The notes: generated from the sequence alone by a model not told the origin. Shown: positions 9,938 through 30,644, counted from the first letter of the stretch. The stretch is 64,000 bases of DNA from Acidocella sp. (GCA_026224875.1 JAMFRU010000058.1:47390-111389); one strand, 5' to 3'. Program-made: numbers and translations.

Positions 9938-10777
9938 ATGCACTTTCACCCTTTGGATACGTCACCCCCCGTACTTTCGGCAGAGCAGCTGGGCTTCGGC
10001 TATCCAGGGGGCGGCGAGGTATTTTCCGGCCTCTCGTTAACGGTGCGGCGGGGTGAGTTTCTGGCGCTGGTAGGGCCTTCCGGCTGCGGCAAGACGACAT
10101 TGCTGAATCTGCTGTCCGGGTTTCTGAAGCCGTCCACCGGAAGCGTCAGGGTTGATGGGGTGGAGGTTTTTCCGGAGCTTCCCGCACTTGGCTACGTGTT
10201 CCAGACGCCCAATCTCTTCCCATGGCTTACGGTGTTGGCCAACGTCCGGTTTGGCCTGCGCATGGCGGGCACCATGCCGGCCTCGCGGCAGCACCAGCGG
10301 GCGATGGAGTATCTGGCGCTCGTCGGCCTGGCGGATGTCGCGGATTTTCTGCCGCACCAGCTTTCCGGCGGGATGCGCCAGCGCGTGGCTTTGGCCCGTG
10401 CGTTGGTGCTGGAGCCGCGGATTTTGCTGATGGACGAGCCTTTCGCGGCACTCGACGCCATATCGCGCCTCAGCATGCAGGAAGAGCTGTTGCGCATCTG
10501 GCGCGCGCTGGGGCAGGCGATTATTTTTATAACGCATGATCTGGATGAGGCTGTGTTTCTGGCCGACCGTGTGCTCGTGCTCGGCGCGGCGCCGCAGGGC
10601 ATATGCGGTGCATTTGATATCGATTTGCCGCGCCCGCGCGACGCGCTCGATACCCGCCGTTCCGAACGGTTCTTGGCATATCGTGCACAGATTTCCGATC
10701 GTATCGCGGCGCTGACGGGCAGCAGCCGTGCGATTTCTTCCCCTCCCGCCAGGATGTTTGCGCATGAGACGATTTAA
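9938..10777 (+). CDS. ABC transporter ATP-binding protein (nitrate/sulfonate/taurine type)
   Basis: Walker [13 protein letters not shown], signature [15 protein letters not shown], Walker [13 protein letters not shown]. Confidence 0.92.
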
Positions 10778-11774
10778 CGTAACGAAACGCGGCCTGATGG
10801 CGGCGGTACTTGCCTTTTGTGCCGTGCTGCCCGTGCGGGCAGCAAATCCACCGTTGCGGATTGGTTATGTGTTTGCGATGGCGAACGCCCCGGTGCTGAT
10901 TGCCAGCCAGGAAGGGTTTTTCAAGGCGCAGGGGCTGCAGGTGCAACTAACACCTTTTGCGGATGGTCCCGCCATTCAGCAGGCTATCGCCGCCGGCCGG
11001 ATTGACGTGGCCTATACCGGCGCGCCGCCTGTGTACCAATGGTACGCGCATGGGCTGGATCTGCGCATACTGGCCATGGTTAATTACGGCCAGGCAGCGC
11101 TGGTGGCCCGCAGTGATGGGCCGATTCACACACTTGGTGATTTGCGGGGGCGCCGCATCGCGGATACCAGCCGGGGCAGCGGCATGGATGTGCTGCTGCG
11201 CGGCTTTGTGTTGCAGGACACAGCGAAACTCGACCCGGAGAAGGATGTATCGCTTGTGCAGATGCCGGTCGGCAACATGAATACGGCACTTGCCGCCGGC
11301 GTGGTCGATGCTGCCTTCGAATGGGAGCCGTTCGTGAGCCAGGAGGCACTTCGCGGATCAGGCCGGGTGGTCTTCAACGTCAACCAGGCACTGCCGTTTT
11401 ATCCTTGGTACGTTATTGCCAGCACTACGGCGGTGATCAATCAGCGGCCGGACGATCTCATAAAATTGTTGCGGGCGAACCATGCGGCGATTGCGTTTCT
11501 CAACGATCATGTCGCGCAGTCTGACGAAATCATCGCGACGGCATTCAAGCTGCAACCGGAGAAATCTCCTGGTGGCACGGTGGTGACACCGGTGCAGATT
11601 GTTACTGCCGCACGCAGCCGGTTGGGATGGTCGGACAAGTTGGCGGCGCCCGATATCGCCTTCATCCAGCGGCTGATGAATTACTCCTTCCAGATGGGGC
11701 TGCTGCCGCGGCCTCTGAAAGCCAATGATGTCATCGACACCAGTCTTTTCGCGCGCGCTGTCACGCAGCACTAA
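10764..11774 (+). CDS. ABC transporter substrate-binding protein (aliphatic sulfonate/nitrate-like)
   Basis: Signal peptide [26 protein letters not shown], then RIGYVFAMANAPVLIASQEGFFKAQGLQVQL. Confidence 0.87.
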   Translation: MRRFNVTKRGLMAAVLAFCAVLPVRAANPPLRIGYVFAMANAPVLIASQEGFFKAQGLQVQLTPFADGPAIQQAIAAGRIDVAYTGAPPVYQWYAHGLDLRILAMVNYGQAALVARSDGPIHTLGDLRGRRIADTSRGSGMDVLLRGFVLQDTAKLDPEKDVSLVQMPVGNMNTALAAGVVDAAFEWEPFVSQEALRGSGRVVFNVNQALPFYPWYVIASTTAVINQRPDDLIKLLRANHAAIAFLNDHVAQSDEIIATAFKLQPEKSPGGTVVTPVQIVTAARSRLGWSDKLAAPDIAFIQRLMNYSFQMGLLPRPLKANDVIDTSLFARAVTQH

Positions 11775-11787
11775 TGCGGGTGCCGGC

Positions 11788-12540
11788 GTGAGATTCCCCC
11801 GGCCGTCCTGGCGTTGGGCCTCTTTGCCGGCGCTGCTGCTGGTTTGGATTGCCGCGGCCTCGAGCGTGCCCGCCTATGTGTTGCCGCAGCCATGGGATGT
11901 GGCGGCGGAAGGGTGGCGTGGAATCCAGGATGGCTCGCTGTTTCACCAGCTTGCCGCCAGCCTGTTGCGGGAGGCCGGCGGGTTCGGTGCTGCCACGGTG
12001 GTTGCTTTCGCGCTGGGAATTTCCGGTGCGGTCTCGCGTGGGTTCCGCGAATTCATGGCGCCGCTCAACAGCCTGTTCATGTCCATTCCGCCGATCGCCT
12101 GGGCGCCGCTCTCGATGATTTTCTTTGGCATTGGCTATCTCTCGATTGTCGTGGTCATTTTTGTCGCGGCACTGTTCCCGATGGTGCTGGCGCTGCAGGA
12201 AGGGTTGCTGACGATCCAGGAGGGCAATCTGCGCGCCGCGCGCACATTGGGCGCGAACCGGTTCCAGCTCATCTGCTATGTTTACCTGCCGGCCTCGCAA
12301 CCTTTCATCATCGCGGCGCTGCGGATTGGCTTCTCCCAGGCCTGGCGGGCTCTGGTTGCAGCGGAAATGATCGGCGCCTCGCAGGGCATCGGCTGGATGG
12401 TGGCGATGGGCGGGCAAACCGGGAATTCAAGCGAGGTCATTCTCGGGATTTCGCTCATTGGACTTATGGCATGGCTCATGGAGAGCCTTGTTTTTCGCCG
12501 CATCGAGCGCCGCTATGAGGGCTGGCGCGCACAATCGTGA
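11788..12540 (+). CDS. ABC transporter permease (SsuC/TauC-like)
   Basis: AARTLGANRFQLICYVYLPASQPFIIAALRIGFSQAWRALVAAEM (EAA-like loop); GTG start at 11788 likely, ORF opens at 11725. Confidence 0.86.
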   Translation: MRFPRPSWRWASLPALLLVWIAAASSVPAYVLPQPWDVAAEGWRGIQDGSLFHQLAASLLREAGGFGAATVVAFALGISGAVSRGFREFMAPLNSLFMSIPPIAWAPLSMIFFGIGYLSIVVVIFVAALFPMVLALQEGLLTIQEGNLRAARTLGANRFQLICYVYLPASQPFIIAALRIGFSQAWRALVAAEMIGASQGIGWMVAMGGQTGNSSEVILGISLIGLMAWLMESLVFRRIERRYEGWRAQS

Positions 12541-14981: not shown

Positions 14982-16073
14982 TTACGCGGCGATGCTGGAG
15001 GTAGGACGGCTCGCGACAGCCTCGCGTACCAGGGGGATCAGCTCTTCGCCATATTGGATGGCATCCTCCAACGGGTCGAAACCGCGGATGAGGAAGGTGG
15101 TGACGCCGAGGTCGTAATAATCGAGCAGTGCTTCGGCCACCTGCGCGCCGGTGCCGACCAGCCCGGTGCTGTTGCCTTGCGCCCCGGTGATGCGGGCAAA
15201 GCCGGTCCACAGGCGCTTGTCCAGCCGGTCACCCTGGCCGGCGGCGTGCAACAGCCTGGCCGCGCCCTCGCTGCCTGGTGCGCCGGCAAAATCGCTTAGG
15301 CCGAGCTTGGCACGCTCCGCTCTGGTTCGTTCTAGAATGGCGTCAGCACGGGCCCAGGCTGCATCTTCAGTGCGGGCCAGAATCGGGCGTAACGACAGGC
15401 TGAACGCGATGGTGCGGCCATGCCGCGCCGCTGCGGCACGTACGCGGGTGACCTGCTCGCGTACCTGTTCAAGTGTTTCGCCGAACAAAGCGTAGATATC
15501 GGCATATTTGCCGGCGGCCTCGATAGCCGCGGGAGATGAGCCGCCGAAAAAGATGGGGATATGCGGCTTCTGCACCGGCTTTTCAGAAATGAAGCCGCCT
15601 TTGAAACGGTAGTATTTTCCTTCATGGTCGAACGGCGCCTCCGCGGTCCAGAGCCGGCGCAGCAGGCTGACATATTCATCCGTTCGGGCGTAGCGCTCGT
15701 CCTTGTTCAGGAAATCGCCGTCGCGCTGCTGTTCGGTATCGTCCGCACCAGAAATGACATGCACTGAGGCACGGCCGCGCGAAAGATTGTCGATGGTGGC
15801 CAGGGTGCGGGCGGCAAGAGTGGGGGCGACGAAGCCGGGGCGGTGCGCCAGCATGATACCGAGTTTTTCCGTTACGGCGGCAACATATGTGCCGAGATGC
15901 AGACCGTCCGGCTGGGTGGAGCCATAGCCGATCAGCACACGATCAAATCCCGCGGCCTCATGCGCCTGGGCGAAGCGTTTCAGATAGTCGACATCGAATA
16001 ATCCGGTCTCGGCGCGGAAGGCGATGTTTGCCGGATTGCGATGGGCGACGAGCCCCGTGAACGATATTGTCAT
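14982..16073 (-). CDS. LLM-class flavin-dependent monooxygenase (alkanesulfonate monooxygenase-like)
   Basis: RPGFVAPTLAARTLATIDNLSRGRASVHVISG, KDERYARTDEYV, WTAEAPFDHEGKYYRF; SsuD-like. Confidence 0.86.
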   Translation of the reverse strand: MTISFTGLVAHRNPANIAFRAETGLFDVDYLKRFAQAHEAAGFDRVLIGYGSTQPDGLHLGTYVAAVTEKLGIMLAHRPGFVAPTLAARTLATIDNLSRGRASVHVISGADDTEQQRDGDFLNKDERYARTDEYVSLLRRLWTAEAPFDHEGKYYRFKGGFISEKPVQKPHIPIFFGGSSPAAIEAAGKYADIYALFGETLEQVREQVTRVRAAAARHGRTIAFSLSLRPILARTEDAAWARADAILERTRAERAKLGLSDFAGAPGSEGAARLLHAAGQGDRLDKRLWTGFARITGAQGNSTGLVGTGAQVAEALLDYYDLGVTTFLIRGFDPLEDAIQYGEELIPLVREAVASRPTSSIAA

Positions 16074-16189
16074 GACTGACGTCTCCGTGGGAATTTGAAG
16101 TTTGGTTTTGGCCTTGGGGCCAGTGCAAAGCAAATGAGTTATTCTTATGGGTTGATGAGTATCACAGAAGAGTTGTAAAATATTCCCGT

Positions 16190-16427
16190 ACGCCAATGGC
16201 GCGAGGAAACTTGTACGCAGGGCGTTGAAGCCCGGCGTGGCGTGGCGTGGCGGTGGGCGCTGGGTACGCGCAGGCCGAGGGTGATGTTTTACCGCACCGC
16301 TTCCAGGGCAGCAGGCGCGGGGTGAGATTGCGCAGCACGATATTGGCGCCGAATTGCCGCGTCAGGCCACGTACCTCCACCGCATATTCGTTGCGTGTTG
16401 TTGTGCGGTTTCGATCTCTGCCAGCAT
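16190..16427 (-). pseudogene. Remnant of an SsuB-like ABC ATPase lacking Walker A
   Basis: Minus-strand AVEVRGLTRQFGANIVLRNL fused directly to (P)RLLPWK.. and then, in another frame, NITLGLRVPSA; ATG at 16427 lies 9 bp after the permease stop. Confidence 0.7.
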
Positions 16428-16435: not shown

Positions 16436-17260
16436 CTAAAACCCTTTTTCCGGGATGATGGAGGGGCGCCAGGAGAGAAGGTGCCGCTCCAGCGCGCGTA
16501 CCGCCTGGTCCGTGGCCAGGCCAAGAAAAGCATAGATGAGAAGCCCGTCGAAGATGATATCAGTGCGGAGAAAATCACGTGCATTCATGACCAGATAGCC
16601 GATGCCGGCGGAGGCGTTGACTTGCTCGGCGACGACCAGGCTGATCCAGGATATGCCGAAGGCCTGGCGCAGTCCGGTGAGGAAGCCAGGCAATGCGGCG
16701 GGGAGGATGACGTGCCAAATCGTTTCGACCTGCGAGAGGCCGAGGATGGAGGCGGATTCCAGTAATTTACGGTCGGCCCCACGCACGGCGGAAAACAGGT
16801 TCAGATAGATGGGAAAGACGCTGCCCAGCGCGATGAGGATGATCTTTGGCGTCTCGCCGATGCCGAACCATAATATCATCAGCGGGATTAGGGCGAGATG
16901 CGGCAGGGTGCGGGCCATCTGCACTGTGGCGTCTATGGCATCTTCGCCGGCGCGTGAGAGGCTGGCGGCGAGGCCCAGTATGGTGCCCGCGGCAACGCCG
17001 CAGCTCAACCCCAAGACCACGCGCTGCAGCGAGATGAGCAGGTTCGGCCATAACTGTCCGGTAATGGTCAACTGCCAGAAACTCTGTACCACTGCGAGCG
17101 GCGTTGGCATGATATGCGCATCGACATAGCCGTAAGCGGTAAGCCAGTACCATATGACAACGATACTGAGAGGTACCGCGATACGGCGTAGTAGCGTGGC
17201 GGGAATAAAGCGGCCCAGCCGCAGGGTGAAGGGAGTGCCTGCGGATAATGTGACGGACAT
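16436..17260 (-). CDS. ABC transporter permease (SsuC/TauC-like)
   Basis: 274 aa, hydrophobic; LESASILGLSQVETIWHVILPAALPGFLTGLRQAFGISWISLVVAE. Confidence 0.87.
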   Translation of the reverse strand: MSVTLSAGTPFTLRLGRFIPATLLRRIAVPLSIVVIWYWLTAYGYVDAHIMPTPLAVVQSFWQLTITGQLWPNLLISLQRVVLGLSCGVAAGTILGLAASLSRAGEDAIDATVQMARTLPHLALIPLMILWFGIGETPKIILIALGSVFPIYLNLFSAVRGADRKLLESASILGLSQVETIWHVILPAALPGFLTGLRQAFGISWISLVVAEQVNASAGIGYLVMNARDFLRTDIIFDGLLIYAFLGLATDQAVRALERHLLSWRPSIIPEKGF

Positions 17261-17267: not shown

Positions 17268-18212
17268 TCAGATCAGAGTAGTATCGAAATAAGGCCGCAC
17301 ATTGGTGCCGCTTGGCAGCAGCCCGGCTTTGGCAAACGTGTCTGCCACAGCCTGGGCGGATGCGATGGCGGCATCATTCACCGGCACGACCTGGTCCGGC
17401 TGGCTCTGGTGCTCCAGCTCGGCCTTCACATATTCCGGTTTTACCTGGATTACGCCTTCAAGAGCCGTCTCCCATTGCGGCTTATGCGCTTCCAGCCAGT
17501 CATAAGTCCGGCCCACCCGCGCTACGTAATCTTTCACCACCGGCCGCAGCGCAGGGTCGGCTAGTGCCGCCGGGGATGCGCCAAGCAGATAATTGCCGGA
17601 TAAGATGCCCTGGGCCGTACGCAGCACACGGGCATTATTGGCGGCCTTGGCTTCCTCGATGGCATAGCCATAGATCGCCCAGGCATCGAGCTGGCCGGCG
17701 GAGAAAGCTGCGGCGCCATCGGTGGGGTTAAGGCTGATGGGCTGGATGTCGGAAAACGTGAGCCCGGCCTGCCAGAGCATGCGCAACAGGTAATAATGTG
17801 AGGTGGTGGCGCGTACATAGCCGACACGCTTGCCTTTTAGCCCGGCAATATCCGTTATGGTTGAGGTTTTTGGCACGAGCACCACTTGGTCGTTTACATC
17901 GCCCTTCAGTACCGCCACGGCCCGCACCTGTGCGCCAGAAGCCGCGGCGAAAGCCTGCGGGATTTCGCTCCAGCTGCCGTAGTCCAGCGCGCCGCCGTTC
18001 ATGGCCTCGATGATCAGCTGGCCAGAGGTGAACTCGAAATATTTTACCTGGTATGGTGTTGCCGATTCGCCAGCCAGTGGCAGTAGGGTTTCGTCTTGGC
18101 CACGGTATGTACCAACACGTAACGTTACATTTCCGGCACGAGCAATGTAGGGGGCAGCCAGTGTGGCGGCACCTAAAGCAAGGATGGTGCGGCGGGTGAG
18201 CGTCTTGCTCAT
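17268..18212 (-). CDS. ABC transporter substrate-binding protein (sulfonate-like)
   Basis: Tat-like N-terminus MSKTLTRRTILALGAATLAAPYIARA; NMT1/SsuA-like fold residues (LKGKRVGYVRATTSHYYLLRML). Confidence 0.87.
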   Translation of the reverse strand: MSKTLTRRTILALGAATLAAPYIARAGNVTLRVGTYRGQDETLLPLAGESATPYQVKYFEFTSGQLIIEAMNGGALDYGSWSEIPQAFAAASGAQVRAVAVLKGDVNDQVVLVPKTSTITDIAGLKGKRVGYVRATTSHYYLLRMLWQAGLTFSDIQPISLNPTDGAAAFSAGQLDAWAIYGYAIEEAKAANNARVLRTAQGILSGNYLLGASPAALADPALRPVVKDYVARVGRTYDWLEAHKPQWETALEGVIQVKPEYVKAELEHQSQPDQVVPVNDAAIASAQAVADTFAKAGLLPSGTNVRPYFDTTLI

Positions 18213-18225
18213 GGTGGTCCCCAAT

Positions 18226-19185
18226 TCAATAGCCCCTGGCGGGCGGCACGATGTTGAGCAGGACTTCGCCGGCCAGGTACCGGCGCAGGTTCTCGCACAG
18301 CAGTTCGCCTTGCGCCGCGCGGTTGCTGCCGCTCCAGGAAATATGCGGTGAGAGGCGCACATTTGGATGGGTGTACAACGCATGGCCAGGCGGCAAAGGT
18401 TCCGGCTCCGTTACATCAAGCGTGGCGCTGCCGACCTGGCCCGAGGCGAGGGCGGCGAGCAGCGCGTCATGGTCGAGTATGCGGCCGCGGGCGATGTTGA
18501 CCAGATGCACGCCAGGTTTTACGCGGGCGAAGGCGGCAGGGCCGATTAGCCCCGATGTTGCGGCGGTGAGCGGCAAAGCGATGACCAGATGATCGGCGCT
18601 GGTCAGCACCGCATCCAGCCCGGCAAAGCGCACGCCGGGCGGCGGTGTACCGCCGGAGCGGTTGAAGGCCAGTATGTCCATGCCAAAGGGCAAGGCACGG
18701 GCTGCAATCTCCTGGCCGATGCTGCCAAAACCGAGGAGGCCCAGGGTTTTGCCTTTGAGCGTGCCGAGGCTGGGTTTGGGCAACCAGGCCTCAGCGCTGT
18801 TTATCCAGATATCCGGCAGGCGTTTCGCCTGTGCGAGCAGTGCGGCCAGCGTGAATTCGGCGATGGCCACGCTGTTGCTGCCACGCCCGCAGGTGACAAG
18901 TGGCACATCGAATACCCAGGGTGGAAATTCATCCACCCCGGTGGAGACGGTGTGCAGCCAGCGCAGCCTTCCAGGCCAGCCCGGTGGCTTCTGATCCGGC
19001 ACCACAACGTTGCCGCCCCGCGGCGGTACGGCAAAAAGAATCTCCGCTTGCTCCGGAACCTCCCATGCCGTGGCGGGGGGCAGCGCCTGGAGTGCCACCC
19101 CGCCGGGCAGGCCCGTCAGGAGTGACAGGAAGGGCTCCGGCAGCTGATGCGCGATGAGCAAGGGTGTAGTGAGCACTGAGGACAT
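18226..19185 (-). CDS. D-2-hydroxyacid dehydrogenase (NAD-dependent)
   Basis: LGLLGFGSIGQEIAARALPFGM Rossmann motif; VNIARGRILDHDALLAAL; DVTEPEPLPPGHALYTHPNVRLSPHIS. Confidence 0.9.
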   Translation of the reverse strand: MSSVLTTPLLIAHQLPEPFLSLLTGLPGGVALQALPPATAWEVPEQAEILFAVPPRGGNVVVPDQKPPGWPGRLRWLHTVSTGVDEFPPWVFDVPLVTCGRGSNSVAIAEFTLAALLAQAKRLPDIWINSAEAWLPKPSLGTLKGKTLGLLGFGSIGQEIAARALPFGMDILAFNRSGGTPPPGVRFAGLDAVLTSADHLVIALPLTAATSGLIGPAAFARVKPGVHLVNIARGRILDHDALLAALASGQVGSATLDVTEPEPLPPGHALYTHPNVRLSPHISWSGSNRAAQGELLCENLRRYLAGEVLLNIVPPARGY

Positions 19186-19198
19186 GATTCCCTCCATG

Positions 19199-21547
19199 TT
19201 AGTAGGTATAGGCAAGTTTGAAGAACACGGTGCGCGGCGGGTTGACCGGGCCTTCCCACAGATTGGGCGTACCGCTCCAGGACAGACTCTGATAACTTAC
19301 GCGGTTGGTCAGATTTTGCCCGGTGATGATCGCTGTCCAATGTTTGTTGGGCAACTGATAGCTGGCGAAAGCATCGACGAAGGCTTGAGGATGGATCTCG
19401 CCCTGGCCGTAGTTAAAGACATCCGAGTAATAGGAGGTTTCATAGGAAATATCGGAACCGAATGTGATTTGACCAGGAATATCAAGCGGAATTTGATAAT
19501 TGGCGGCGCCGTAAAGCTGCCAGCGCGGGGCGAACGGAAGCTGGTTGCCGGTGGCACTCACCACTGTGCCGGTGTTCACGCTGGTGCCGGGGTTGGGGAA
19601 ACTATCGAAACGGCTCCAGAGATAGCTTGCATTGCCCGTTAGCGTGAGCCCATCCACAGGCTGCGCGACGGATTCGAGCTCGAACCCGTCAGAATGCGCG
19701 GAATTCACATTCGAGCGCACGGTTACAAGCCCGCCGGTGACAGGGCTGATTACCGATGCGGTTTCCTGCAGGCCGGTGTAGTCGTTGTAGAACAAAGTGC
19801 CGTTCAGGCGTAGCCGGTGGTTGAGCCAGTCGGTTTTGATTCCGGCTTCATAGGTTGTTACGTTTTCCTGGTTATACGGCAGTGCCGTTGGCAATGAGGA
19901 GGCGCGGTTGTTGAAGCCGCCGGCATCGAAACCTTCGGCAATGCTGCCATAAGCGAAAATACCTGGTGTGAACTGGTAGGACAGGCCGTATTTCGGCGTA
20001 AAAGAGTACCAGGTTTTATTGCCGGAATAGGAGAAGTTATTCTTCAGCGCGGCATTCTCGGTGGCTGTGTTGGTTGATGAAGGTGTGAGCTGGATGCCTT
20101 GAAAATTGTCATACACACCCTGGAATTGGAAACCCCGATTCTCGATGGTATAACGCCCGCCTAATGTAGCTGTGAGCTTATCGGTCAAATGATAATCCCC
20201 CTGCGCATAGGCGGCGTAATCGGTGGTTTTGGTATCGGCGATCTGATCTTCGGGGAAGGCCGGTGTGCCGCCGCCGGCGGGCGAGACGACATAGCCGATG
20301 CGGTTGGAGGCGAAGTTTTCATGCAACAGATAAAGGCCGGTGGCGAAATCGAATTTGTCGTAATTACCGAGCAGCTGAAATTCCTGTGTTAACTCCTGCT
20401 CGCGATAGACGATGTAGTTGTCCGAAATCGATACCAGCGCAGGAAAGGGAGCGGCGAGCGATGCGGGTGTGCCATTATATTCCACCAGCGGCTGACCGTC
20501 GTTATTGTAGTTCACGGGGTTTTGCGAAAAACCACGATAGGCGCTGATGGATTTGAATGTCAGGTTTGGGTTGATGGTATAGACGAGCCTGTTGGAGACG
20601 CCGCCGACCCAGGAATCGTTTTTCGGACCTTGCGAGGCGTAACTGTCGTTCAAATTCGTCTGGCCATAAATGGGATGGGCCAATGTGCCGCCGATGATCG
20701 GTTTCACTGGAGAATAGAAGTCGGCACCGGAATAATCGAGCACGCCATCGGCCTCCACCTCATCGGTGAGGTCGGGGGTGATTTTGACCAGTACTTTAGC
20801 GCGTGCGCCGTTGGTGTTCTGGTTGTTCACGCGCTGACCGATCGTCGGGTCGTAATTATAACCCTCGTGCTGGTCGTGAGCGAAAGCGATGCTGGCGTCG
20901 ACCTTGCCCGGTATGATTGGACCGGCGGCATAGGCATGCAGGTTGACGGCGCCAAAAGTGCCGCCGCCGACATCGAAATTACCTTCGGGCGTGTCGGTTG
21001 GGTCGCGGGTAATGTAGCGGATGGCGCCGGCGTCGGCATTCTCGCCGAACAGCGTGCCCTGCGGCCCGCGCAGAACTTCGACGCGTTCCAAATCGGTCAG
21101 ATCCGTCATGCCGTTGATGGCGCGCGGCAGATATACGTCGTCAAGATATTGCGCGATGTTCGGATCGAAAATCGGATCGGCATCGCCGATGCCGCGGATG
21201 AAGAAGATCTGTGTCAACGGCGTAATACCTGAGCGCGTGATCAACACACCTGGCGTTTTGCCGGCGAGGTCGCGTGCGGTTGTCAAGTTTTGTTGCTGGA
21301 TCTGCTGGGGGGTGATCACGGTGACGGCGACAGGGGTTTTTTGCAGCTTTGTGCTGTGCCTTGTTGCGGTAACGATGATGTCTTTCAGTCCTGGCTGCTC
21401 GGCCGGAGGCGGCGTATTTTGCGCCCGTGCGATGCTGGCATTCCCCACCGCGAGGAAGGCAGCTGATGCCAGCAAACCGGCGCGAATTGCTGTACTACCA
21501 GCACCGCGCGCGCTGCCCTTTGCCTTCGTATGACCCAAACGCTGCAT
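19199..21547 (-). CDS. TonB-dependent receptor
   Basis: IIVTATRHSTKLQKTPVAVTVI plug start, LERVEVLRGPQGTLFGENADAGAIRY, C-terminal aromatic ...VFFKLAYTY. Confidence 0.94.
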   Translation of the reverse strand: MQRLGHTKAKGSARGAGSTAIRAGLLASAAFLAVGNASIARAQNTPPPAEQPGLKDIIVTATRHSTKLQKTPVAVTVITPQQIQQQNLTTARDLAGKTPGVLITRSGITPLTQIFFIRGIGDADPIFDPNIAQYLDDVYLPRAINGMTDLTDLERVEVLRGPQGTLFGENADAGAIRYITRDPTDTPEGNFDVGGGTFGAVNLHAYAAGPIIPGKVDASIAFAHDQHEGYNYDPTIGQRVNNQNTNGARAKVLVKITPDLTDEVEADGVLDYSGADFYSPVKPIIGGTLAHPIYGQTNLNDSYASQGPKNDSWVGGVSNRLVYTINPNLTFKSISAYRGFSQNPVNYNNDGQPLVEYNGTPASLAAPFPALVSISDNYIVYREQELTQEFQLLGNYDKFDFATGLYLLHENFASNRIGYVVSPAGGGTPAFPEDQIADTKTTDYAAYAQGDYHLTDKLTATLGGRYTIENRGFQFQGVYDNFQGIQLTPSSTNTATENAALKNNFSYSGNKTWYSFTPKYGLSYQFTPGIFAYGSIAEGFDAGGFNNRASSLPTALPYNQENVTTYEAGIKTDWLNHRLRLNGTLFYNDYTGLQETASVISPVTGGLVTVRSNVNSAHSDGFELESVAQPVDGLTLTGNASYLWSRFDSFPNPGTSVNTGTVVSATGNQLPFAPRWQLYGAANYQIPLDIPGQITFGSDISYETSYYSDVFNYGQGEIHPQAFVDAFASYQLPNKHWTAIITGQNLTNRVSYQSLSWSGTPNLWEGPVNPPRTVFFKLAYTY

Positions 21548-21832
21548 AAAAAACCCCTGATTACTGCGGCTTGCCGTATCCGGCATAACCTTAATTGACT
21601 ATAAGACAAGTGGGGAATGATGCGGCAGACGCGGGGTGTAAAGTTTAATCTTATCATCAACTCATGAGAAATTCTAAAGTATCTGTTTTTAAAGAAAAAT
21701 ACGAAATAATTTTCTTTTTGTGGGGTTAAAAATAGAAAATTCCGGCACAAATAATATATGCTTCTGTTCGTTCATATTTGACGAGACATATAATATGACT
21801 ATCATATTTATAGGATATACTCGGGATAGGTC

Positions 21833-22984
21833 ATGGATTCTTACGAAGCATCGGCTGGTGCTGCTCTCGCGGAGATCAGCCAGCATTTGGCGGCTAGTGC
21901 CGCGCAATATGACCGCAGCGGCGCTTTCCCGCATGAAAACTTTGCGTATTTGCGCGAGGAGCGGCTGGTTGGTCTGCCGGCTGAACGCATTTTGGCTGGT
22001 GCCGCTTTGCCGCTGCCGCAGGCCCGTAAAATTATTGCGGCGGTGGCGCGCGGTGAACCTTCGACCGCGCTGGTACTTATCATGACCTATCTCTTCGTGC
22101 TGCAGGCGGCGCAGAATCCGCATTGGCAGCCGCATGTGCGGCGCATGGTGCTGGAGGATATTGCGGCTAACGGCACGCTGGCCAACGCGTTGCGGGTGGA
22201 GCCGGAGCTGGGTACGCCGGTGCGTGGGGGGCTGCCGAAGACCACGGCGCGGCGCGTGGAGGGCGGGTTTCGCGTTTCTGGCCGCAAACTTTATTCCACG
22301 GGCAGTCCGGCTTTGTATTGGATGGGCGTATGGGGGCGCACGGATGATGAAGAACCGCTGGTCGGTACGTTTCTGGTGCCGGCAGATTCGCCTGGTATTC
22401 ACATTGAGCAAACATGGGATCAGCTTGGCCTGCGCGCTTCGGGCAGCCATGATGTGATTTTCGATGATGTGTTTATTCCTGAAGAATATGCCGTGGATAT
22501 TCGCCCGCCGGCTGCTTGGGCGGCGGAGCGCGCGCCGGAATTGCTGGCGTGGATGTCCGTGTTGCTGGGTACGCTTTATGATGCGGTGGCGCGTAATGCA
22601 CGGGACTGGCTGGTGGAGTTTGCGTTGACGCGCGCGCCTGCCAATCTCGGTGCGCCGCTCTCTACTCTGCCACGTTTTCAGGAGGCATTGGGGGAGATCG
22701 ACGCGCTGTTGCATGTTAATCAAGTTCTTCTGGATCGTATCAGCAACGCTCCATTCGAAACGGTGACCGCGATCGACAGTAATTTTCTAAAATACACCGT
22801 CACCAACAATGCCATTAAAGTGGCGGAGAAGGCGCTGGCTCTCACCGGCAATCCGGGGCTGGCGCGCGGCAATCCGTTGGAGCGGCATTACCGCGATGCG
22901 TTGTGCGGGCGTGTACACTCGCCGCAGGACGATACCATTCTCTTAACCGCCGGCCGCGCGGCCTTTGCCGCCGCCCGCCCTTAA
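21833..22984 (+). CDS. Acyl-CoA dehydrogenase-like flavoprotein (SfnB/DszC-like)
   Basis: 383 aa; GGFRVSGRKLYSTGSPALYWMGVWGRTDDEEPLVGTFLVPADSPGIHIEQTWDQLGLRASGSHDVIFDDVFIP. Confidence 0.83.
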   Translation: MDSYEASAGAALAEISQHLAASAAQYDRSGAFPHENFAYLREERLVGLPAERILAGAALPLPQARKIIAAVARGEPSTALVLIMTYLFVLQAAQNPHWQPHVRRMVLEDIAANGTLANALRVEPELGTPVRGGLPKTTARRVEGGFRVSGRKLYSTGSPALYWMGVWGRTDDEEPLVGTFLVPADSPGIHIEQTWDQLGLRASGSHDVIFDDVFIPEEYAVDIRPPAAWAAERAPELLAWMSVLLGTLYDAVARNARDWLVEFALTRAPANLGAPLSTLPRFQEALGEIDALLHVNQVLLDRISNAPFETVTAIDSNFLKYTVTNNAIKVAEKALALTGNPGLARGNPLERHYRDALCGRVHSPQDDTILLTAGRAAFAAARP

Positions 22985-22995
22985 AGGAGCATACC

Positions 22996-23808
22996 ATGCC
23001 CGATACTGCTTATACCCAGTTGCGTTCCGCACCGCCCATCCGTAATTCCGCGCCGCCGCAGCGGGGGTTGCCGGAGCCGGGGCCGAGTTTTGAGGAGATT
23101 CGTCTGTTCCGCAAACAGCGCCTGGCAGCCGGCCTGCGCCTGTTTGCGCTGTATGGTTTCGACCATGGGCCGGCCGGGCATATTACCGTGCGTGATCCGG
23201 AGTGGCATGACCATTTCTGGATCAATCCGTTTGGCCAATATTTTGGCCATGTGCGTGTGTCGGATCTGCTGCTGGTCAATCACGATGGCGATATCGTGAT
23301 TGGCGACCGGCAGGTAAACCAAGCGGGATTTCAGATCCATTCCGCCATCCATCGTGCCCGGCCCGATGTGCATGGCGTGGCGCATTCGCATTCGCCATAT
23401 GGCAAGACATTCTCCACCTTGCGCAAGTTTCTCGACCCGCTGACGCAGGATTCCGCTGGCTTTTATCGGCGCCAGGCTTTGTCCACTTTTACCGGCGTGG
23501 TGTTGAACGAAACCCAGGCGCAGCAGATTGTGCAGGATGCCGGTGATAAGGATTTTATCATCCTCGAAAATCATGGTTTCCTTACCGCGGGGGCTTCGGT
23601 GGAGTCTGCGGTATGGCATTTCATCGCGCTGGAAGATGCCGCGCGGGTGCAGTTGCTGGCGCAAGCCGCGGGTACGCCTGTACCGCTCTCGCACGAAGTG
23701 GCGGATTTTACCGCCGGCCAGTATCGGCGCCATGCCGATGGCGGACGTTTTGCTTTCCAGACGCTTTACGAACGGATTGTTCGCGAGCAGCCGGATCTGC
23801 TGGATTGA
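22996..23808 (+). CDS. Class II aldolase/adducin family protein
   Basis: FDHGPAGHITVRDPEW, HGVAHSHSPYGKTFSTL, FIILENHGFLTAGASVESAVWHFIALEDAARVQLLA. Confidence 0.88.
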   Translation: MPDTAYTQLRSAPPIRNSAPPQRGLPEPGPSFEEIRLFRKQRLAAGLRLFALYGFDHGPAGHITVRDPEWHDHFWINPFGQYFGHVRVSDLLLVNHDGDIVIGDRQVNQAGFQIHSAIHRARPDVHGVAHSHSPYGKTFSTLRKFLDPLTQDSAGFYRRQALSTFTGVVLNETQAQQIVQDAGDKDFIILENHGFLTAGASVESAVWHFIALEDAARVQLLAQAAGTPVPLSHEVADFTAGQYRRHADGGRFAFQTLYERIVREQPDLLD

Positions 23809-23908
23809 TCCGGGCTTAAGGCAGAGTGAGCGAAACTCATTTTATGCTGCGGCTAGGCTGGGGTAGTCTATATTGCGAAGCGGCGAATGCCGCGTGAGGA
23901 GTGTTATC

Positions 23909-25006
23909 ATGGGTTTGGAATTCATCGGCTATATCGGCAATCACAATGCCTCGGAGACCACGCGGCACTCTGGGCCGGTGATTGACCGGAACCATATTGA
24001 AACGGTTGCGAAGGCGCATGAGCTGGCCGGGTTCGACCGTGCGCTGCTTGCATTCCATTCCTGGTCGCCGGATTGCTTGCAGATTGGCCAGCATGCGGCT
24101 TCGGTAACTGAAAAACTCGGTATTTTTGTAGCACAGCGCCCTGGGTTTACCGCACCGACCGTAGCGGCGCGGCAATTTGCCACGCTTGATGCGCTCTATC
24201 CCGGCCGGTTCTCACTCAATGTCATCACCGGTGGCGACCATGCCGAGCTGGTGCAGGATGGGAATACCGTGGCGGATAAGGATGAGCGCTATGCTCGCAC
24301 CAATGAGTTTCTCGATATCGTGCGGGCAGAATGGACAGCGGAGAAACCCTTCGATTATCACGGCAAATATTATCAGGTTGAGCGAGGGTTTTCGCAGGTG
24401 AGGCCGAGCAAGCCCATCGACATATTCATTGCCGGCGCGTCTGAGGCCGCGATTGATACCGCTGGCCGCCATGCCGATGTGTTTGCGCTGTGGGCCGAGG
24501 ATTACGACTCCGTGCGTGGCCAGCTTGCCAAAGTGCGCGCCGCAACCACGAAATATGGGCGGCCGGTACCGGAATTCTCGCTCTCGCTGCGGCCGATTAT
24601 TGCCGATACGGAAAAACTGGCATGGGAGAAGGCGGAATATATTCTGGAAAAGGCACGAAAATTACAGGATGCCGCCGGTTTTGCTCGCGATGGCGCGCCG
24701 CCGAATGTGGGCTCGCGGCGATTGATCGATCTTGCCACCAAGGGGAGCCGCCACGACAAATATCTTTGGACCGGCATTGCCGGACTGACCGGGGCCAAGG
24801 GCAATTCGACCTCGCTGGTGGGTACGCCGGACCAGGTGGCTGAGGGGCTGCTGGATTACTGGGATCTTGGCGTGCAGAAATTTCTGATCCGCGGTTTCGA
24901 TCCGATTATTGATGCCCTCGAATATGGCCGCGAAATTCTGCCGAGGGTGCGCGCCTTGGTGGCGCAGCGTGGTGAGCGGCACTCTGCTGCGCGCTCTGCC
25001 GCGTAA
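23909..25006 (+). CDS. LLM-class flavin-dependent monooxygenase (alkanesulfonate monooxygenase-like)
   Basis: Same motifs as the 14982-16073 protein: KDERYARTNEFLDIVRAEWTAEKPFDYHGKYYQVERGF, GNSTSLVGTPDQVAEGLLDYWDLGVQKFLIRGFDP. Confidence 0.88.
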   Translation: MGLEFIGYIGNHNASETTRHSGPVIDRNHIETVAKAHELAGFDRALLAFHSWSPDCLQIGQHAASVTEKLGIFVAQRPGFTAPTVAARQFATLDALYPGRFSLNVITGGDHAELVQDGNTVADKDERYARTNEFLDIVRAEWTAEKPFDYHGKYYQVERGFSQVRPSKPIDIFIAGASEAAIDTAGRHADVFALWAEDYDSVRGQLAKVRAATTKYGRPVPEFSLSLRPIIADTEKLAWEKAEYILEKARKLQDAAGFARDGAPPNVGSRRLIDLATKGSRHDKYLWTGIAGLTGAKGNSTSLVGTPDQVAEGLLDYWDLGVQKFLIRGFDPIIDALEYGREILPRVRALVAQRGERHSAARSAA

Positions 25007-25584
25007 TGGCAAATATCGAACGCCTACGGGTTTTTGCCGCCCATGCCGCGCAATCCGTGGCGTTGCATGGGCGCAATGAGGCTGCCGTGCTTGCGGCGAT
25101 TACCCCGGCTTTGGCCACGCTGATCGCACACGATGATTTTTTACCGGAGGCCTACACCAAACCTGATCCGAAATATTATCAGCAATATCTGCTCTATGGC
25201 GATCCGGCGCAGAATCTCTCCATCGTTAGTTTTGTGTGGGGGCCGGGGCAGAAAACGCCGGTGCATAATCATCGTGTGTGGGGGCTGGTCGGTATTTTGC
25301 GCGGCGGTGAGCTGAGTGCAGATTTTACCGAGCGCGAGGGCAGGCTTGTGCCTGGCGCCACGGAATTGCTATCGCCGGGCCGGGTTGTTGCTGTCTCGCC
25401 GCGGCTGGGCGATATTCATCAGATTGCCAATGCCTATGATGATGCGGTGTCGATCAGCATCCATGTCTATGGTGGTAATATTGGCCGCATCCGGCGCGAG
25501 GTGTTTTTACCTGAAACGGGCGAGGTCAAACCTTTCGTCTCCGGCTATGTCAATACGGATGTACCGAATCTCTGGGCTGCATAA
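25006..25584 (+). CDS. Cysteine dioxygenase-like cupin (thiol dioxygenase family)
   Basis: VSFVWGPGQKTPVHNHRVWGLVGILRGGEL; GDIHQIANAYDDAVSISIHVYGG. Confidence 0.82.
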   Translation: MANIERLRVFAAHAAQSVALHGRNEAAVLAAITPALATLIAHDDFLPEAYTKPDPKYYQQYLLYGDPAQNLSIVSFVWGPGQKTPVHNHRVWGLVGILRGGELSADFTEREGRLVPGATELLSPGRVVAVSPRLGDIHQIANAYDDAVSISIHVYGGNIGRIRREVFLPETGEVKPFVSGYVNTDVPNLWAA

Positions 25585-27152
25585 TGAGTTTTAAAAATAC
25601 CACGCCGTCTGTTCTACGCACTCTATGGCGCAGCAATGCCGAGGTGGCGCTGTTCGACCTGCGCGAAGAGGGGCCGTATTCGCTGGCTCATCCGTTCTGG
25701 GCGGTCTCGCTGCCCTTGGCACAGATCGAGCTGCGTATCCGCGCACTGGTGCCGCGCAAAAATGCGCCGATCGTGGTGTATGATGATGGTGAAGGGCTGA
25801 CGCAGCGCGGGGCGGAACGCATCGCCGCACTTGGTTACACCGATGTGTCGATATTGGACGGCGGGTTGGCGGCTTATCGGGAATTGGGCGAAGTGTTCCG
25901 GGATGTTAACGTGCCTTCCAAGGCTTTTGGGGAGCTGGTGGAATCGATCCGTCATACCCCGTCCGCCGGGGCGGAGGAGATCAAACATCTCATCGAGACC
26001 GAGCCTGACCTTGTGGTGTTGGATGGCAGGCGGTTCGAAGAATACCGCACCATGAGCATTCCGCGCGGGCGCTCCGTGCCGAATGGCGAGCTGGCGCTGC
26101 GGGTGCATGACATCGCGCCAAACCCCGATACGACCATTGTGATTAATTGCGCCGGGCGTACGCGCTCGATCATTGGCACCCAGACGCTCGTCAACCTTGG
26201 CCTACCCAACCGTGTGTTGGCTTTGCGCAATGGCACCATTGGCTGGACGCTGGCAGGGCAGGCGCTGGAGCGCGGCAAGACTGAGCGTTTTCCCGCCACC
26301 ACGGCAGCAGGGCATGAGCGCGCGCGCAATGCCGCACAGGCCTATGCAGCGCGGGCAGGAGTGCCGGTAATCGATGCGGCCACCCTCGCTGCCTGGCGTG
26401 CCGAGGCTGCCAGCCGCACGCTCTATTTGCTCGACGTACGCACGCCGGAAGAGTTTCTCTCTGGCCATGCTGAGGGGTTTGCCTCCGCGCCCGGCGGGCA
26501 GCTGGTACAGGCCACCGATGAATGGGTGGCGGTGCGCGGCGGCCGGCTGGTGCTGTTCGATGATGACGGTGTGCGCGCCCGCAGTACCGCCGCCTGGCTG
26601 CGGCAATTGGGCTGGGATGCAACAGTACTGGCGCAGGATGCGATTCCGGCGGATGATAGGACACCGCCTTTGCCTGTCTTCATCAACCCGCCACCGGTGC
26701 CCGCCATCAGCGCTGCGGTGTTGCAGGTGGACCGTGAAAGTTTTGAGATCGTTGATCTTGGCCCGAGCCCGCTGTATCGCGCGGGGCATATTCCTGGCGC
26801 CTGGTTTCTGGCCGGTTCGCAGCTTGGTGACCTTGCCAATATTCCCGGCACGGCGCCGCTCGTTATTACTTCCGCCGATGGTAAGCTGGCTGCCGCGCAT
26901 GCTGCCGATATTGCGGCTGCTACGCAGCGCGAAGTGTTGTGGTTACGGGGTGGCAACAAGGGGTGGGTGGAGGCCGGCTCCAAATTGGATGTTGCACCCG
27001 GCTGGGCCAGCGCGCCGGAGGATGTTTATAAGCGGCCCTACGAGGGTACCGATAATCAGGCGGCCGCCATGCAGGCCTATATCGATTGGGAGCTGCAGCT
27101 TGTAGCCCAGCTGGCCAATGATGGCGTCAGCAATTTCCATGTTATCCGCTGA
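25584..27152 (+). CDS. Multi-domain rhodanese-like protein (four domains)
   Basis: 522 aa; repeated DxR...G(H/F)IPG-type units; one catalytic Cys loop INCAGRTRSIIG. Confidence 0.85.
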   Translation: MSFKNTTPSVLRTLWRSNAEVALFDLREEGPYSLAHPFWAVSLPLAQIELRIRALVPRKNAPIVVYDDGEGLTQRGAERIAALGYTDVSILDGGLAAYRELGEVFRDVNVPSKAFGELVESIRHTPSAGAEEIKHLIETEPDLVVLDGRRFEEYRTMSIPRGRSVPNGELALRVHDIAPNPDTTIVINCAGRTRSIIGTQTLVNLGLPNRVLALRNGTIGWTLAGQALERGKTERFPATTAAGHERARNAAQAYAARAGVPVIDAATLAAWRAEAASRTLYLLDVRTPEEFLSGHAEGFASAPGGQLVQATDEWVAVRGGRLVLFDDDGVRARSTAAWLRQLGWDATVLAQDAIPADDRTPPLPVFINPPPVPAISAAVLQVDRESFEIVDLGPSPLYRAGHIPGAWFLAGSQLGDLANIPGTAPLVITSADGKLAAAHAADIAAATQREVLWLRGGNKGWVEAGSKLDVAPGWASAPEDVYKRPYEGTDNQAAAMQAYIDWELQLVAQLANDGVSNFHVIR

Positions 27153-28677
27153 AGCCGATGTGCTCATCATCGGCGGTGGCATGGCCGCTGCCTGGGCCGC
27201 CGTTGGAGCGGCGCTTGGCGGGGCCAATGTCATCATGGTTGATAAAGGTGCTGTCGGCACCAGCGGTGTTACCGCGACGGCCGGGCCAAACCATTGGTGG
27301 GTAGCGCCAAAGCAGCGCGAGCAGGCGGTGACCCAGCGCCAGGGCCAGGCTTTGGGTCTGGGTGAGGCGAGCTGGATGCATCGTATTCTGGAACAGACAT
27401 GGGAAACCCTCCCCAGTTTGGCGCGGTTCTATGAGTTTTGCGTGAATGATACCGGTGTTACCGTATATAATTCCGTTCGTGGACCGGAATATATGCGTGG
27501 CTTGCGGCAATATGCATTGAGTTTGGGTGTGCGTATTCTCGACCATTCTCCGGCGCTTGAATTGCTGCTGCAACGCGGCGCCATTGCCGGGGCGCGTGGT
27601 GAGCGGTTGCAGGCACGGGAGGAATGGGAAATCCGCGCCCCGGCCGTGATTCTCGCAACAGGCGGCTGCGCTTTCAACGGCGCGCTGCTTGGTAGCCGCA
27701 CCAATACTGGCGATGGTTATCTGCTCGCGGCGGAAACCGGTGTGGCGCTCTCGGGCATGGAATTTTCCAGCCAGTTTACGGTAGCACCGGCTTTCTCGAC
27801 CATGACGCGGGCGATGTCCTATGTGTACGCCACATATTACGATGCCGCCGGCCGGGTGGTGCAACCCTCCGGCGATGTGCAGAGGCTGCGCTTTCTCGCG
27901 GAGGCTTTACGCAACGGGCCGGTGTATGCCGATTTCTCCCGCATGCCGCAGGACATACGCGACCGCCTGCCCACGATCTCGCCCAATGTGCTGCCGGTAT
28001 TCCGCCGCCAGGGCATTGATCCGTTCACTGATAAATTCCCCATCGCTCTGGTTTCGGAGGGCACGATACGCGGTGTTGGCGGGTTGGTGCTGGAGTCTGA
28101 GGATTGCGAAACCTCTACGCCCGGCCTGTTTGCTGTTGGTGATGCCGCATCGCGCGAAGCGGTTACCGGCGCGATTTCCGGTGGTGGTGCCGTGAACTCT
28201 GCCTGGGCTTTGTCCTCGGGCATCTGGTCTGGCCGCGCCGCGGCGCGGCTGGCAAAACAGGGTGTGCGGTACGGCGCCATCGAGCGCACCGGCCAGGCTG
28301 GGTTGCGGCCGTTGCAATCGGCACGGAATTTGGACACCGGCGCATTGGCCGCCACTGTACGAGAACAGGCAACGGATTTCTCCACCACCTTCTTCCGCGA
28401 TGATACCAACCTGCGCCGCGCCTTGAACGTGTTGGATTCGCAATGGGGTGAAATCCGCACGCATCTTGCAGGTGGTTTGCGCGCCCGAGAGGCAGCCTCA
28501 CTCACCGCCACGTCGCGCTGGTGCCTCAGTGCGGCACTGCACCGGCGCGAGAGCCGCGGCATTCATACGCGCGAGGATTTTCCAGGTGCCGCGCCACATC
28601 TGGCAAAGCGGCAAATTCTGCGGGGCGTGGATAATATCGACTCCAGCTTTGCCTCGGCCGAGGAGATGGCGGCATGA
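27118..28677 (+). CDS. FAD-dependent oxidoreductase, fumarate reductase/AprA-like flavoprotein
   Basis: ADVLIIGGGMAAAWAAVGAALGGANVIMVDKG FAD motif; PAVILATGGCAFNGALLGSRTNTGDGYLLAAETGVALSGMEFSSQF; GLFAVGDAASREAVTGAISGGGAV. Start may be slightly downstream of 27118. Confidence 0.84.
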   Translation: MMASAISMLSAEADVLIIGGGMAAAWAAVGAALGGANVIMVDKGAVGTSGVTATAGPNHWWVAPKQREQAVTQRQGQALGLGEASWMHRILEQTWETLPSLARFYEFCVNDTGVTVYNSVRGPEYMRGLRQYALSLGVRILDHSPALELLLQRGAIAGARGERLQAREEWEIRAPAVILATGGCAFNGALLGSRTNTGDGYLLAAETGVALSGMEFSSQFTVAPAFSTMTRAMSYVYATYYDAAGRVVQPSGDVQRLRFLAEALRNGPVYADFSRMPQDIRDRLPTISPNVLPVFRRQGIDPFTDKFPIALVSEGTIRGVGGLVLESEDCETSTPGLFAVGDAASREAVTGAISGGGAVNSAWALSSGIWSGRAAARLAKQGVRYGAIERTGQAGLRPLQSARNLDTGALAATVREQATDFSTTFFRDDTNLRRALNVLDSQWGEIRTHLAGGLRAREAASLTATSRWCLSAALHRRESRGIHTREDFPGAAPHLAKRQILRGVDNIDSSFASAEEMAA

Positions 28678-29021
28678 TTGAATTGTTGTTCGAGGATTTG
28701 TGCACGCAATGTAATGAATGCGTCGTTAAATGTCCGTCCAATGTATTCGATGCGGTGCCGGGCGCGGCCCCGGTGATCGCGCGGCCACTCGATTGCCAGA
28801 CCTGCTATATGTGCGAGATGTACTGCCAGGACGATGCAATTTTCATTGGTTCAGACTACGAGAAACAGAATATGCCAGACCCTGAGGTGGTGCGCGCGGC
28901 CGGCTGGCTGGGCGAGTTGCGGCGTAACAGTGGCTGGGATGAATGGGCGGCCGACCCGCAATATAAAAACCAGATGTGGTATATGAGCGAGGTTTTCAAA
29001 CGCGGCCTAGCGGGTGGATAA
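28674..29021 (+). CDS. Ferredoxin family protein, 2x[4Fe-4S] (AprB-like)
   Basis: CTQCNECVVKCP and CQTCYMCEMYCQDDAIFI; 4-bp overlap with the preceding flavoprotein gene. Confidence 0.88.
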   Translation: MIELLFEDLCTQCNECVVKCPSNVFDAVPGAAPVIARPLDCQTCYMCEMYCQDDAIFIGSDYEKQNMPDPEVVRAAGWLGELRRNSGWDEWAADPQYKNQMWYMSEVFKRGLAGG

Positions 29022-29033: not shown

Positions 29034-29696
29034 ATGACTGAAAATAGTTTGAATGAACAATTCACGGCTTTGCATGAGCATCGCGTGCAGACGATGAATC
29101 CCGTTGATCTTGATATCAACATCCGCCAGCGGGAATATCTCGTGGCGCATGCAAACCGCGATGCGTTTCCCAAGCCGGGCGATAAAGTGCCGGATTTCAC
29201 ATTGCCGGATGTGGATGGCGGCAGCGTGGTGCTGGCGGAATTATTGGTCAAAGGCCCGGTGGTGCTGGTGTTTTTCCGTTTCGCCGGCTGCCCCGCATGC
29301 AATATTGCGCTGCCGTATTATGAGCGCGCGCTCTACCCGGAACTGGCCGCACGGGGTGCCACTTTGCTGGCCTTGAGCCCGCAGGTGCCGGAGAAGCTTG
29401 GAGAAATTAAGACCCGGCATAATCTTTCTTTCCATATTGCTTCGGACACGGACAATCGTCTGGGAAAACATTTCGGTATCGTGTTTTCACCGACCGAGGA
29501 GGCCAGGGCAAATGCCGAAGCCAAGGGCTCGAATATGGGCGAGACCACGGGTACCGGCACGTGGGAGCTGCCGATGCCGGCGGTAATTGTGATCGGGCAG
29601 GATGGGGTTATCCGCTATGCCGATGTGAGCCCGGATTGGCTGGTGCGCACGGAGGCGGGGGATATTCTGGCAGCATTGGAACCGGCGCTAAGCTGA
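29034..29696 (+). CDS. Peroxiredoxin-like (AhpC/TSA family) protein
   Basis: VPDFTLPDVDGGSVVLAELLVKGPVVLVFFRFAGCPACNIALPYYERAL. Confidence 0.88.
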   Translation: MTENSLNEQFTALHEHRVQTMNPVDLDINIRQREYLVAHANRDAFPKPGDKVPDFTLPDVDGGSVVLAELLVKGPVVLVFFRFAGCPACNIALPYYERALYPELAARGATLLALSPQVPEKLGEIKTRHNLSFHIASDTDNRLGKHFGIVFSPTEEARANAEAKGSNMGETTGTGTWELPMPAVIVIGQDGVIRYADVSPDWLVRTEAGDILAALEPALS

Positions 29697-29804: not shown

Positions 29805-30644
29805 ATGGCGGTGAATATTCCCATGGAGCTGCTGCGTAGCTTCGTCGCCATTATTGACACCGGTTCAATGCTGCAGGCCACCGAGCGCGTGTTCCTCACG
29901 CAATCCGCGCTCTCGCTGCAGATGCGCCGGTTGGAAGATCTTGTGCGCCAGCCATTGTTCAACCGCCAGGGGCGCCGGCTGCGGCTTACCCCGGCGGGAG
30001 AGCGGCTGCTGCGTACCGCGCGCGATATTCTGAGCCTCAACGATCAGGTGCTTGCCGCTCTACAGGGCCAGGCGCTTTCCGGCTCCGTGCGCCTTGGCAT
30101 GAACCAGGATTTCGCCGAGATTTTCCTCCCCGGCGTGCTGAATGAGTTCATCACCTCCTACCCTGAAATCCAGACCCAGGTGCGGGTCGGCGGCAGCCAG
30201 GAGCTGCTTGACCTGCTCTCCAACGGCCAGCTGGATCTCGTACTCTGCGTACGCCCCGAGGATGACCCGAAACTGCTGAAAACCGTGCCGATGGGATGGT
30301 TCGGCCATATGCATCTGCTGGAGCGCGACGTGCTGCCGCTGGCCCTGCTGGAGCCGCCCTGCCTGTTCCGTGCCGCCGCTCTGGCCCGGCTGGAGGCCTC
30401 CGGGCGGCGCTTCCGCGTGCTGGTGGAAACCGCCAGCCTGTCGGGCATCCGTGCCGCGGTACAGGCGGGGCTTGCCATCACCTGCCGCGGCCCGCTGTTC
30501 GCCGAGGTCGCCCCCTTGCTCCCGGCCGACGCGCTGCCGTCACTCTCCCGTGCCGGCTATGCAATCTATGATGCACCCGTACCATCGCCCGCCACCAGCC
30601 GGTTGGAGACATTGCTGCGGCAAGCGGTGCTGGCCCTGAACTGA
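29805..30644 (+). CDS. LysR-family transcriptional regulator
   Basis: N-terminal HTH ELLRSFVAIIDTGSMLQATERVFLTQSALSLQMRRLEDLVRQPLFNRQGRRLRLTPAGERLL. Confidence 0.92.
   Translation: MAVNIPMELLRSFVAIIDTGSMLQATERVFLTQSALSLQMRRLEDLVRQPLFNRQGRRLRLTPAGERLLRTARDILSLNDQVLAALQGQALSGSVRLGMNQDFAEIFLPGVLNEFITSYPEIQTQVRVGGSQELLDLLSNGQLDLVLCVRPEDDPKLLKTVPMGWFGHMHLLERDVLPLALLEPPCLFRAAALARLEASGRRFRVLVETASLSGIRAAVQAGLAITCRGPLFAEVAPLLPADALPSLSRAGYAIYDAPVPSPATSRLETLLRQAVLALN

Follow-up and report, generated by a model that had tools for sequence, protein, structure and literature searches.

Within a 64,000-nucleotide stretch of DNA from Acidocella sp. (GCA_026224875.1 JAMFRU010000058.1:47390-111389; hereafter the window), two + strand genes encode a flavin adenine dinucleotide (FAD) flavoprotein of 519 aa and a ferredoxin of 115 aa, whose open reading frames (ORFs) overlap by 4 bp (Table 1). 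Pfam analysis identified FAD_binding_2 (3.6e-16) and a piece of Succ_DH_flav_C, the fumarate-reductase C-terminal domain, in the flavoprotein, and Fer4/Fer4_9 in the ferredoxin. The latter contains two complete cluster motifs, C10-x2-C13-x2-C16-x3-C20-P and C41-x2-C44-x2-C47-x3-C51, whose eight cysteines showed no variation among 32 homologues. ORFs, domains and motifs all agreed with a first-pass annotation, made from the sequence, which had described an FAD protein overlapping by 4 bp a ferredoxin with two 4Fe-4S motifs. None of the curated NCBIfam equivalog cut-offs was reached by the flavoprotein, for which the top-scoring models were TfrA (108 bits, cut-off 718) and NadB (94 bits, cut-off 452.75), with AprA at 37.7 bits (cut-off 557). 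The nearest copy of the flavoprotein, 86% identical, was found with identical gene order in a metagenome-assembled genome (locus L014; L-numbers are labels of homologous loci). Because this copy begins at the equivalent of Met8, the annotated start of the window flavoprotein may be seven codons too early.

The pair very probably belongs to the AsfA/AsfB family, a name to which sequence comparison ties it through a homologue in Cupriavidus metallidurans CH34, where Rmet_4334/5 has been published as 'reductase-ferredoxin AsfA/AsfB' (PMC2864759). The sequence of the CH34 megaplasmid (CHR2) was unannotated in the plasmid collection, and positions on it were determined by counting called genes from published anchors. 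CHR2 holds one flavoprotein homologue site, followed by a ferredoxin; identity to the window proteins was 40% over 96% for the flavoprotein and 50% for the ferredoxin. In called genes, this pair comes 22 after the pyridine nucleotide-disulphide oxidoreductase gene Rmet_4310 and 29 before cbbR3 (Rmet_4365, a LysR gene with CbbR as its best NCBIfam match), which places it at Rmet_4334/5, to within about one gene.

In Pseudomonas putida S-313, insertions in asfA abolish the use of aromatic but not of aliphatic sulfonates, and the asf cluster consists of a LysR regulator, the reductase/ferredoxin, a binding protein and an ATP-binding cassette (ABC) transporter (PMC4267179). This layout is close to the order flavoprotein, ferredoxin, substrate-binding protein, permeases and ATPase found in L027, L028, L030, L058 and L065. 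Like asfRABC of P. putida S-313 and C. metallidurans, the window contains a ferredoxin gene directly after the flavoprotein gene, SsuA-family binding proteins (slightly under the cut-off), an SsuC-like permease and a LysR gene. Unlike the asfRABC pair, that of the window falls in another subclade and is located inside an operon with monooxygenase, SfnB-like, aldolase, thiol dioxygenase, rhodanese and peroxiredoxin genes. The original 1999 report of asfRAB is said to describe a non-user gaining arylsulfonate use with these genes, and to suggest electron transport with a less specific oxygenase. The pair was already named, with genetics concerning arylsulfonate use, which the first-pass annotation had overlooked; the family is known genetically and poorly understood. 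Reviews describe AsfAB only as an electron-transfer system; according to them, soil sulfur is mostly organic and asfA serves as the marker for aromatic desulfonation in soil.

The first-pass annotation had noted a resemblance of the pair to adenylylsulfate (APS) reductase and suggested that it may oxidise sulfite or an organic sulfur intermediate; AprA-type chemistry on APS or sulfite is not supported. An alignment was made of AprA sequences, 48 family members, PDB 2fja (AprA) and the Methanothermococcus 3'-phosphoadenylylsulfate (PAPS) reductase 8a8o. The APS-contacting residues of AprA (N74, Q145, W234, R265 and H398) were kept in 12/12 AprA sequences and in 0/48 family homologues. The window ferredoxin has CQTCYMC where AprB has CWECYSC, so that the electron-transfer tryptophan is replaced by glutamine; glutamine was found at this position in at least 90% of the 32 ferredoxin homologues, and tryptophan in 6/6 AprB motifs found. 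Pfam did not detect the AprB C-terminal domain (PF12139, APS-reductase_C) on the window ferredoxin, and PF12139 had no match in the host genome, in a search that was positive in no control genome. The host has PAPS_reduct-family and sulfite-reductase-family genes of its own, on other contigs, and for this reason a replacement of CysH or sulfite reductase by the pair was also rejected. A true APS reductase or a sulfite-oxidising AprBA-type enzyme is thus highly improbable, in spite of the sulfur setting, the similar fold and an identical two-subunit cofactor architecture, in which AprBA and the Methanothermococcus enzyme (the latter also alike in size) likewise combine an FAD subunit of the fumarate-reductase superfamily with a 2x[4Fe-4S] subunit.

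The fold of the flavoprotein was modelled by AlphaFold (predicted local distance difference test score 86). The model matched FrdA with a template modelling (TM) score of 0.80, the Methanothermococcus PAPS reductase 8a8o with TM 0.79/0.74 and AprA 2fja with TM 0.67. The predicted fold is accordingly that of the superfamily, about equally near to FrdA and 8a8o and further from AprA, which is consistent with the first-pass assignment to a fumarate-reductase/AprA superfamily.

FrdA was thus among the best fold matches, and TfrA and NadB headed the NCBIfam scores; both results could be expected if the pair were a fumarate reductase, L-aspartate oxidase or thiol:fumarate reductase merely located beside sulfur genes. 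However, the scores were far under the cut-offs, and the catalytic histidine and arginine positions that bind the dicarboxylate in SdhA/NadB were not kept in the family (H242 to Y/F, T to a gap, H354 to E, and R399 to H/V/Q/I). The column of SdhA R286 contained arginine in just 21/48 family members and glutamate in the window flavoprotein. Although it has the superfamily and fold in common with SdhA, FrdA, NadB and TfrA, the window flavoprotein also lacks the histidine for covalent FAD. Since sulfur genes are in addition associated with the pair across phyla, a dicarboxylate enzyme is very unlikely. The family has residues of its own: R318 (in EGTVRGTGG), R346, N360, W363 and R457 were invariant or nearly so, and differed in AprA, PAPS reductase, SdhA and NadB.

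Phylogenetic analysis also bore on both of these alternatives. A quick tree placed the family beside AprA (support 83), and a better-rooted tree, with more outgroups, recovered it as a separate deep branch (100/99) outside AprA plus succinate dehydrogenase/NadB (94/87); AprA as the sister group, taken from the quick tree, was withdrawn. In neither tree was the family placed within the AprA clade. Constrained topologies in the better-rooted tree gave approximately unbiased test p values of 0.095 for a grouping with AprA and 0.222 for the other forced grouping, and neither was rejected. Judged from these sequence trees, a specific AprA affinity of the family is not supported. Residues, curated scores and trees led to the rejection of identities as APS reductase, fumarate reductase or aspartate oxidase. 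The distinct clade considered in the first-pass annotation was recovered as a deep branch, whereas the suggested link to AprA was lost with better outgroups. AsfAB is here tied to the fumarate-reductase/AprA fold, with the missing pockets defined and the family's own invariant residues named.

A second AprA-like family was observed in L111-L114 and L116, comprising a 580-aa FAD protein, a CWYC ferredoxin and TauT-type ABC genes. It is widespread on plasmids of Paraburkholderia, rhizobia, Acinetobacter and cyanobacteria, with HEAT-repeat-like and TauD-like ORFs nearby (by eye), and is annotated as fumarate reductase/succinate dehydrogenase flavoprotein in plasmid records. Like the window, these systems have an FAD protein and a ferredoxin beside TauT-type ABC genes. 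In contrast to the window pair, their flavoprotein clusters with AprA/PAPS reductase (100/99) and retains only part of the APS residues, namely AprA N74 and H398, and their ferredoxin keeps the tryptophan. This system was not favoured as the true AsfAB: no C. metallidurans record was among the 60 listed with it, and the window-type flavoprotein was found once on CHR2, the replicon for which AsfA/AsfB is reported. A further FAD protein and ferredoxin pair, on a long branch and with the ferredoxin gene first, was present in L115 (G556:C59), adjoining Rieske-oxygenase-like and branched-chain-type ABC ORFs (by eye).

Flavoprotein and ferredoxin homologues were adjacent in 34/34 loci first collected, mostly overlapping by a few bases, and these loci span Alpha- and Betaproteobacteria, Actinomycetota, Bacillota and Cyanobacteriota. 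Both genes also co-occurred in 20/20 further genome loci and in 0/20 control loci. Because of this adjacency and co-occurrence, the pairing is not due to chance, with the ferredoxin gene preceding the flavoprotein gene in two loci (L033 and L067). The flavoprotein family was detected in 12/300 genomes of the same taxonomic family, in 11/399 of the same phylum and in none of six other species of the window's genus, and members were also found in Rhodococcus, Nocardia, Pseudonocardia, Cohnella, Paenibacillus and Nostoc. This sparse occurrence in close genomes together with presence in distant genera points to horizontal spread.

Sulfur genes accompany the pair in many of these genomes. In a count whose reference proteins were drawn from other family loci and the window, and which was therefore not blind to gene choice, SsuA/TauA-type substrate-binding proteins were present at 16/20 homologous loci and at 0/20 loci chosen at random from the same genomes (p=8e-8), luciferase-like monooxygenases (LLMs) at 11/20 and 2/20, and proteins of the SfnB/acyl-CoA dehydrogenase type at 7/20 and 0/20, respectively. 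Binding proteins beside the pair in L012 and L006 exceeded the curated SsuA cut-off, and four LLM neighbours exceeded that for NtaA/DmoA. LLM genes were nearby in 15/20 members of the window's subclade versus 6/25 in the rest of the family; cupin/cysteine dioxygenase genes numbered 7 versus 0, and class II aldolases 8 versus 0. The sulfonate setting that the first-pass annotation had recognised was confirmed by these binding proteins and monooxygenases. Two further gene associations were observed: CopC/CopD/YcnI copper genes between two LLM-ABC sets of a sulfonate operon (Paracoccus and Rhizobium; L006, L007, L022, L023 and L147), and, in Cupriavidus, Agrobacterium and Rhizobium etli, a gene for a fatty acid desaturase close to the pair (L137:3984-5015; L029:503-1474; L034:481-1491).

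A role of the pair in organosulfur scavenging is highly probable, and it is probable that the pair is an AsfA/AsfB-family unit which scavenges sulfur from sulfonates beyond ordinary SsuD systems, the known case being aromatic sulfonates. As to its function within such a unit, the evidence leans somewhat towards electron supply instead of direct catalysis; we infer the electron path, as well as the partner oxygenase and substrate of the window copy. AsfB would receive electrons from a cellular donor and relay them through both of its clusters to the FAD of AsfA, which would use them in its own pocket, neither of the APS nor of the dicarboxylate type. AsfA would thereby support C-S cleavage carried out with an LLM-type monooxygenase dependent on reduced flavin mononucleotide, for example either of the two encoded in the window, and the sulfite released would then be reduced by the ordinary sulfite reductase of the cell. 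An electron-supply role fits because the window's contig, which encodes two LLMs, carries neither common flavin reductase family. A BLAST search with flavin reductases over 20 loci also gave no match, a result that proves little since three of the six queries were wrongly extracted.

Natural loss of the pair was observed in Paracoccus. P. denitrificans PD1222 has kept the LLM-ABC-cupin-rhodanese operon also found in P. methylovorus and P. yeei (proteins 81-94% identical), and the flavoprotein and ferredoxin genes are gone; a scar made up of the first 32 flavoprotein codons persists between the genes for the ATPase and the cupin (L147:12888-12983, NC_008688.1). In Haematobacter massiliensis, the corresponding site carries the LLM and ABC genes and lacks the pair, and a related pair resides on a different plasmid. 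Because PD1222 lost only the pair from an otherwise conserved operon, the pair is an optional module whose loss can leave the remainder of the operon in place. This operon, existing with and without the pair, and the fold and residue data provide direct routes to test AsfAB function.

Several results weigh against the interpretation given above. Since PD1222 keeps the LLM operon without it, the pair does not act as a fixed source of electrons for that operon's LLM. Nineteen loci carry the pair and ABC genes with no LLM within ~8 kb. Other reductases are present elsewhere in the host genome, which weakens the argument from flavin reductase absence. The published TauD gene Rmet_4409 was not at the expected distance from the CH34 pair, the sole anchor that did not fit. 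Finally, because the window copy shares only 40% identity with CH34 AsfA and belongs to the other subclade, the substrate of the window pair may be different from that of CH34 AsfA.

The first two of these results also fit a model in which AsfA is itself the sulfonate-transforming enzyme, with the substrate on its FAD like fumarate, aspartate and APS in other superfamily members, AsfB only feeding electrons, and the monooxygenases acting on other compounds. Direct catalysis by AsfA fits because so many pair and transporter loci are without an LLM nearby; no sulfur gene was recognised adjoining the pair in the Rhodococcus and Nocardia loci. In the solved relatives FrdA, NadB and AprA the flavoprotein subunit is the catalytic one, and the invariant polar residues peculiar to the family (R318, R346, N360, W363 and R457) also speak for it. 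However, the aromatic-sulfonate pathway of P. putida is described as an oxygenation that also requires ssu (PMC4267179), and oxygenases encoded at other genomic sites may take part. Direct catalysis is therefore regarded as a possible but rather unlikely explanation. It is a doubtful, more speculative extension that AsfA forms a catalytic branch of its own in the superfamily, acting by its flavin on the sulfonate, with R318, R346, N360 and W363 as the site, and that the window's subclade has switched from aromatic sulfonates to a different organosulfur compound processed together with the LLM, thiol dioxygenase and rhodanese.

In the window, the pair is located within a tight + strand operon in the order SfnB-like protein, class II aldolase, LLM monooxygenase, thiol-dioxygenase-like protein, rhodanese, flavoprotein, ferredoxin and peroxiredoxin, after which a LysR gene follows. 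The position downstream of a rhodanese and a thiol dioxygenase given in the first-pass annotation is correct, with a weak match for the dioxygenase.

Table 1. Gene pair and neighbouring features in the window
Feature	Position	Strand	Basis and remarks
AsfA-like FAD flavoprotein	27118..28677	+	519 aa; possible true start 27139
AsfB-like 2x[4Fe-4S] ferredoxin	28674..29021	+	115 aa; 8 Cys invariant
Protein with four rhodanese domains	25584..27152	+	Pfam PF00581, 4 stretches; kept beside homologous pairs in L014, L062, L073, L075
Cysteine-dioxygenase-like thiol dioxygenase	25006..25584	+	PF05995 21.3 bits, slightly below cut-off 23 (weak)
SsuD/SfnG-like LLM flavin-dependent monooxygenase	23873..25006	+	TIGR03565 180.5 bits (cut-off 518, not reached); PF00296
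Class II aldolase/adducin family protein	22987..23808	+	NF004855 337.9 bits, above cut-off 255
SfnB/DszC-like acyl-CoA-dehydrogenase-fold oxidoreductase	21833..22984	+	TIGR04022 SfnB 78 bits, NF042439 82 bits; both below cut-offs
Peroxiredoxin (AhpC/TSA), last gene of operon	29034..29696	+	PF00578; starts 12 bp past ferredoxin gene
LysR-type regulator	29805..30644	+	PF00126/PF03466; 94% orthologue in L014
TonB-dependent receptor, divergent from operon	19199..21586	-	PF00593/PF07715; 87% orthologue in L014
D-2-hydroxyacid dehydrogenase family protein	18226..19215	-	NCBIfam match
SsuA-family sulfonate-binding protein	17268..18383	-	TIGR01728 153.5 bits, slightly under cut-off 163.5
SsuC-like sulfonate ABC permease	16436..17260	-	NF008470 250 bits (cut-off 347, not reached)
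Second SsuD-like LLM monooxygenase	14982..16196	-	TIGR03565 235 bits (cut-off 518, not reached); 50% identical to LLM at 23873
Second NitT/TauT-type ABC system	9938..12540	+	ATPase 9938-10777; SsuA-family binding protein 10728-11774 (161.8 bits); permease 11725-12540 (similarity only)

Control of the gene pair by a riboswitch or other RNA element was considered and rejected, as an Rfam search around the flavoprotein loci searched found no such element near the flavoprotein gene. Between the two SsuA-type clusters of the window, an ORF of 820 aa (12458-14920, +) had almost no family match (weak DUF3604). Beside the sulfonate island, two divergent cobalamin riboswitches were identified at 32583-32727 (-) and 33357-33565 (+), with 38.8 and 129.5 bits, respectively, the right-hand one preceding a CobW-like GTPase and a CobN-like gene (named by eye).

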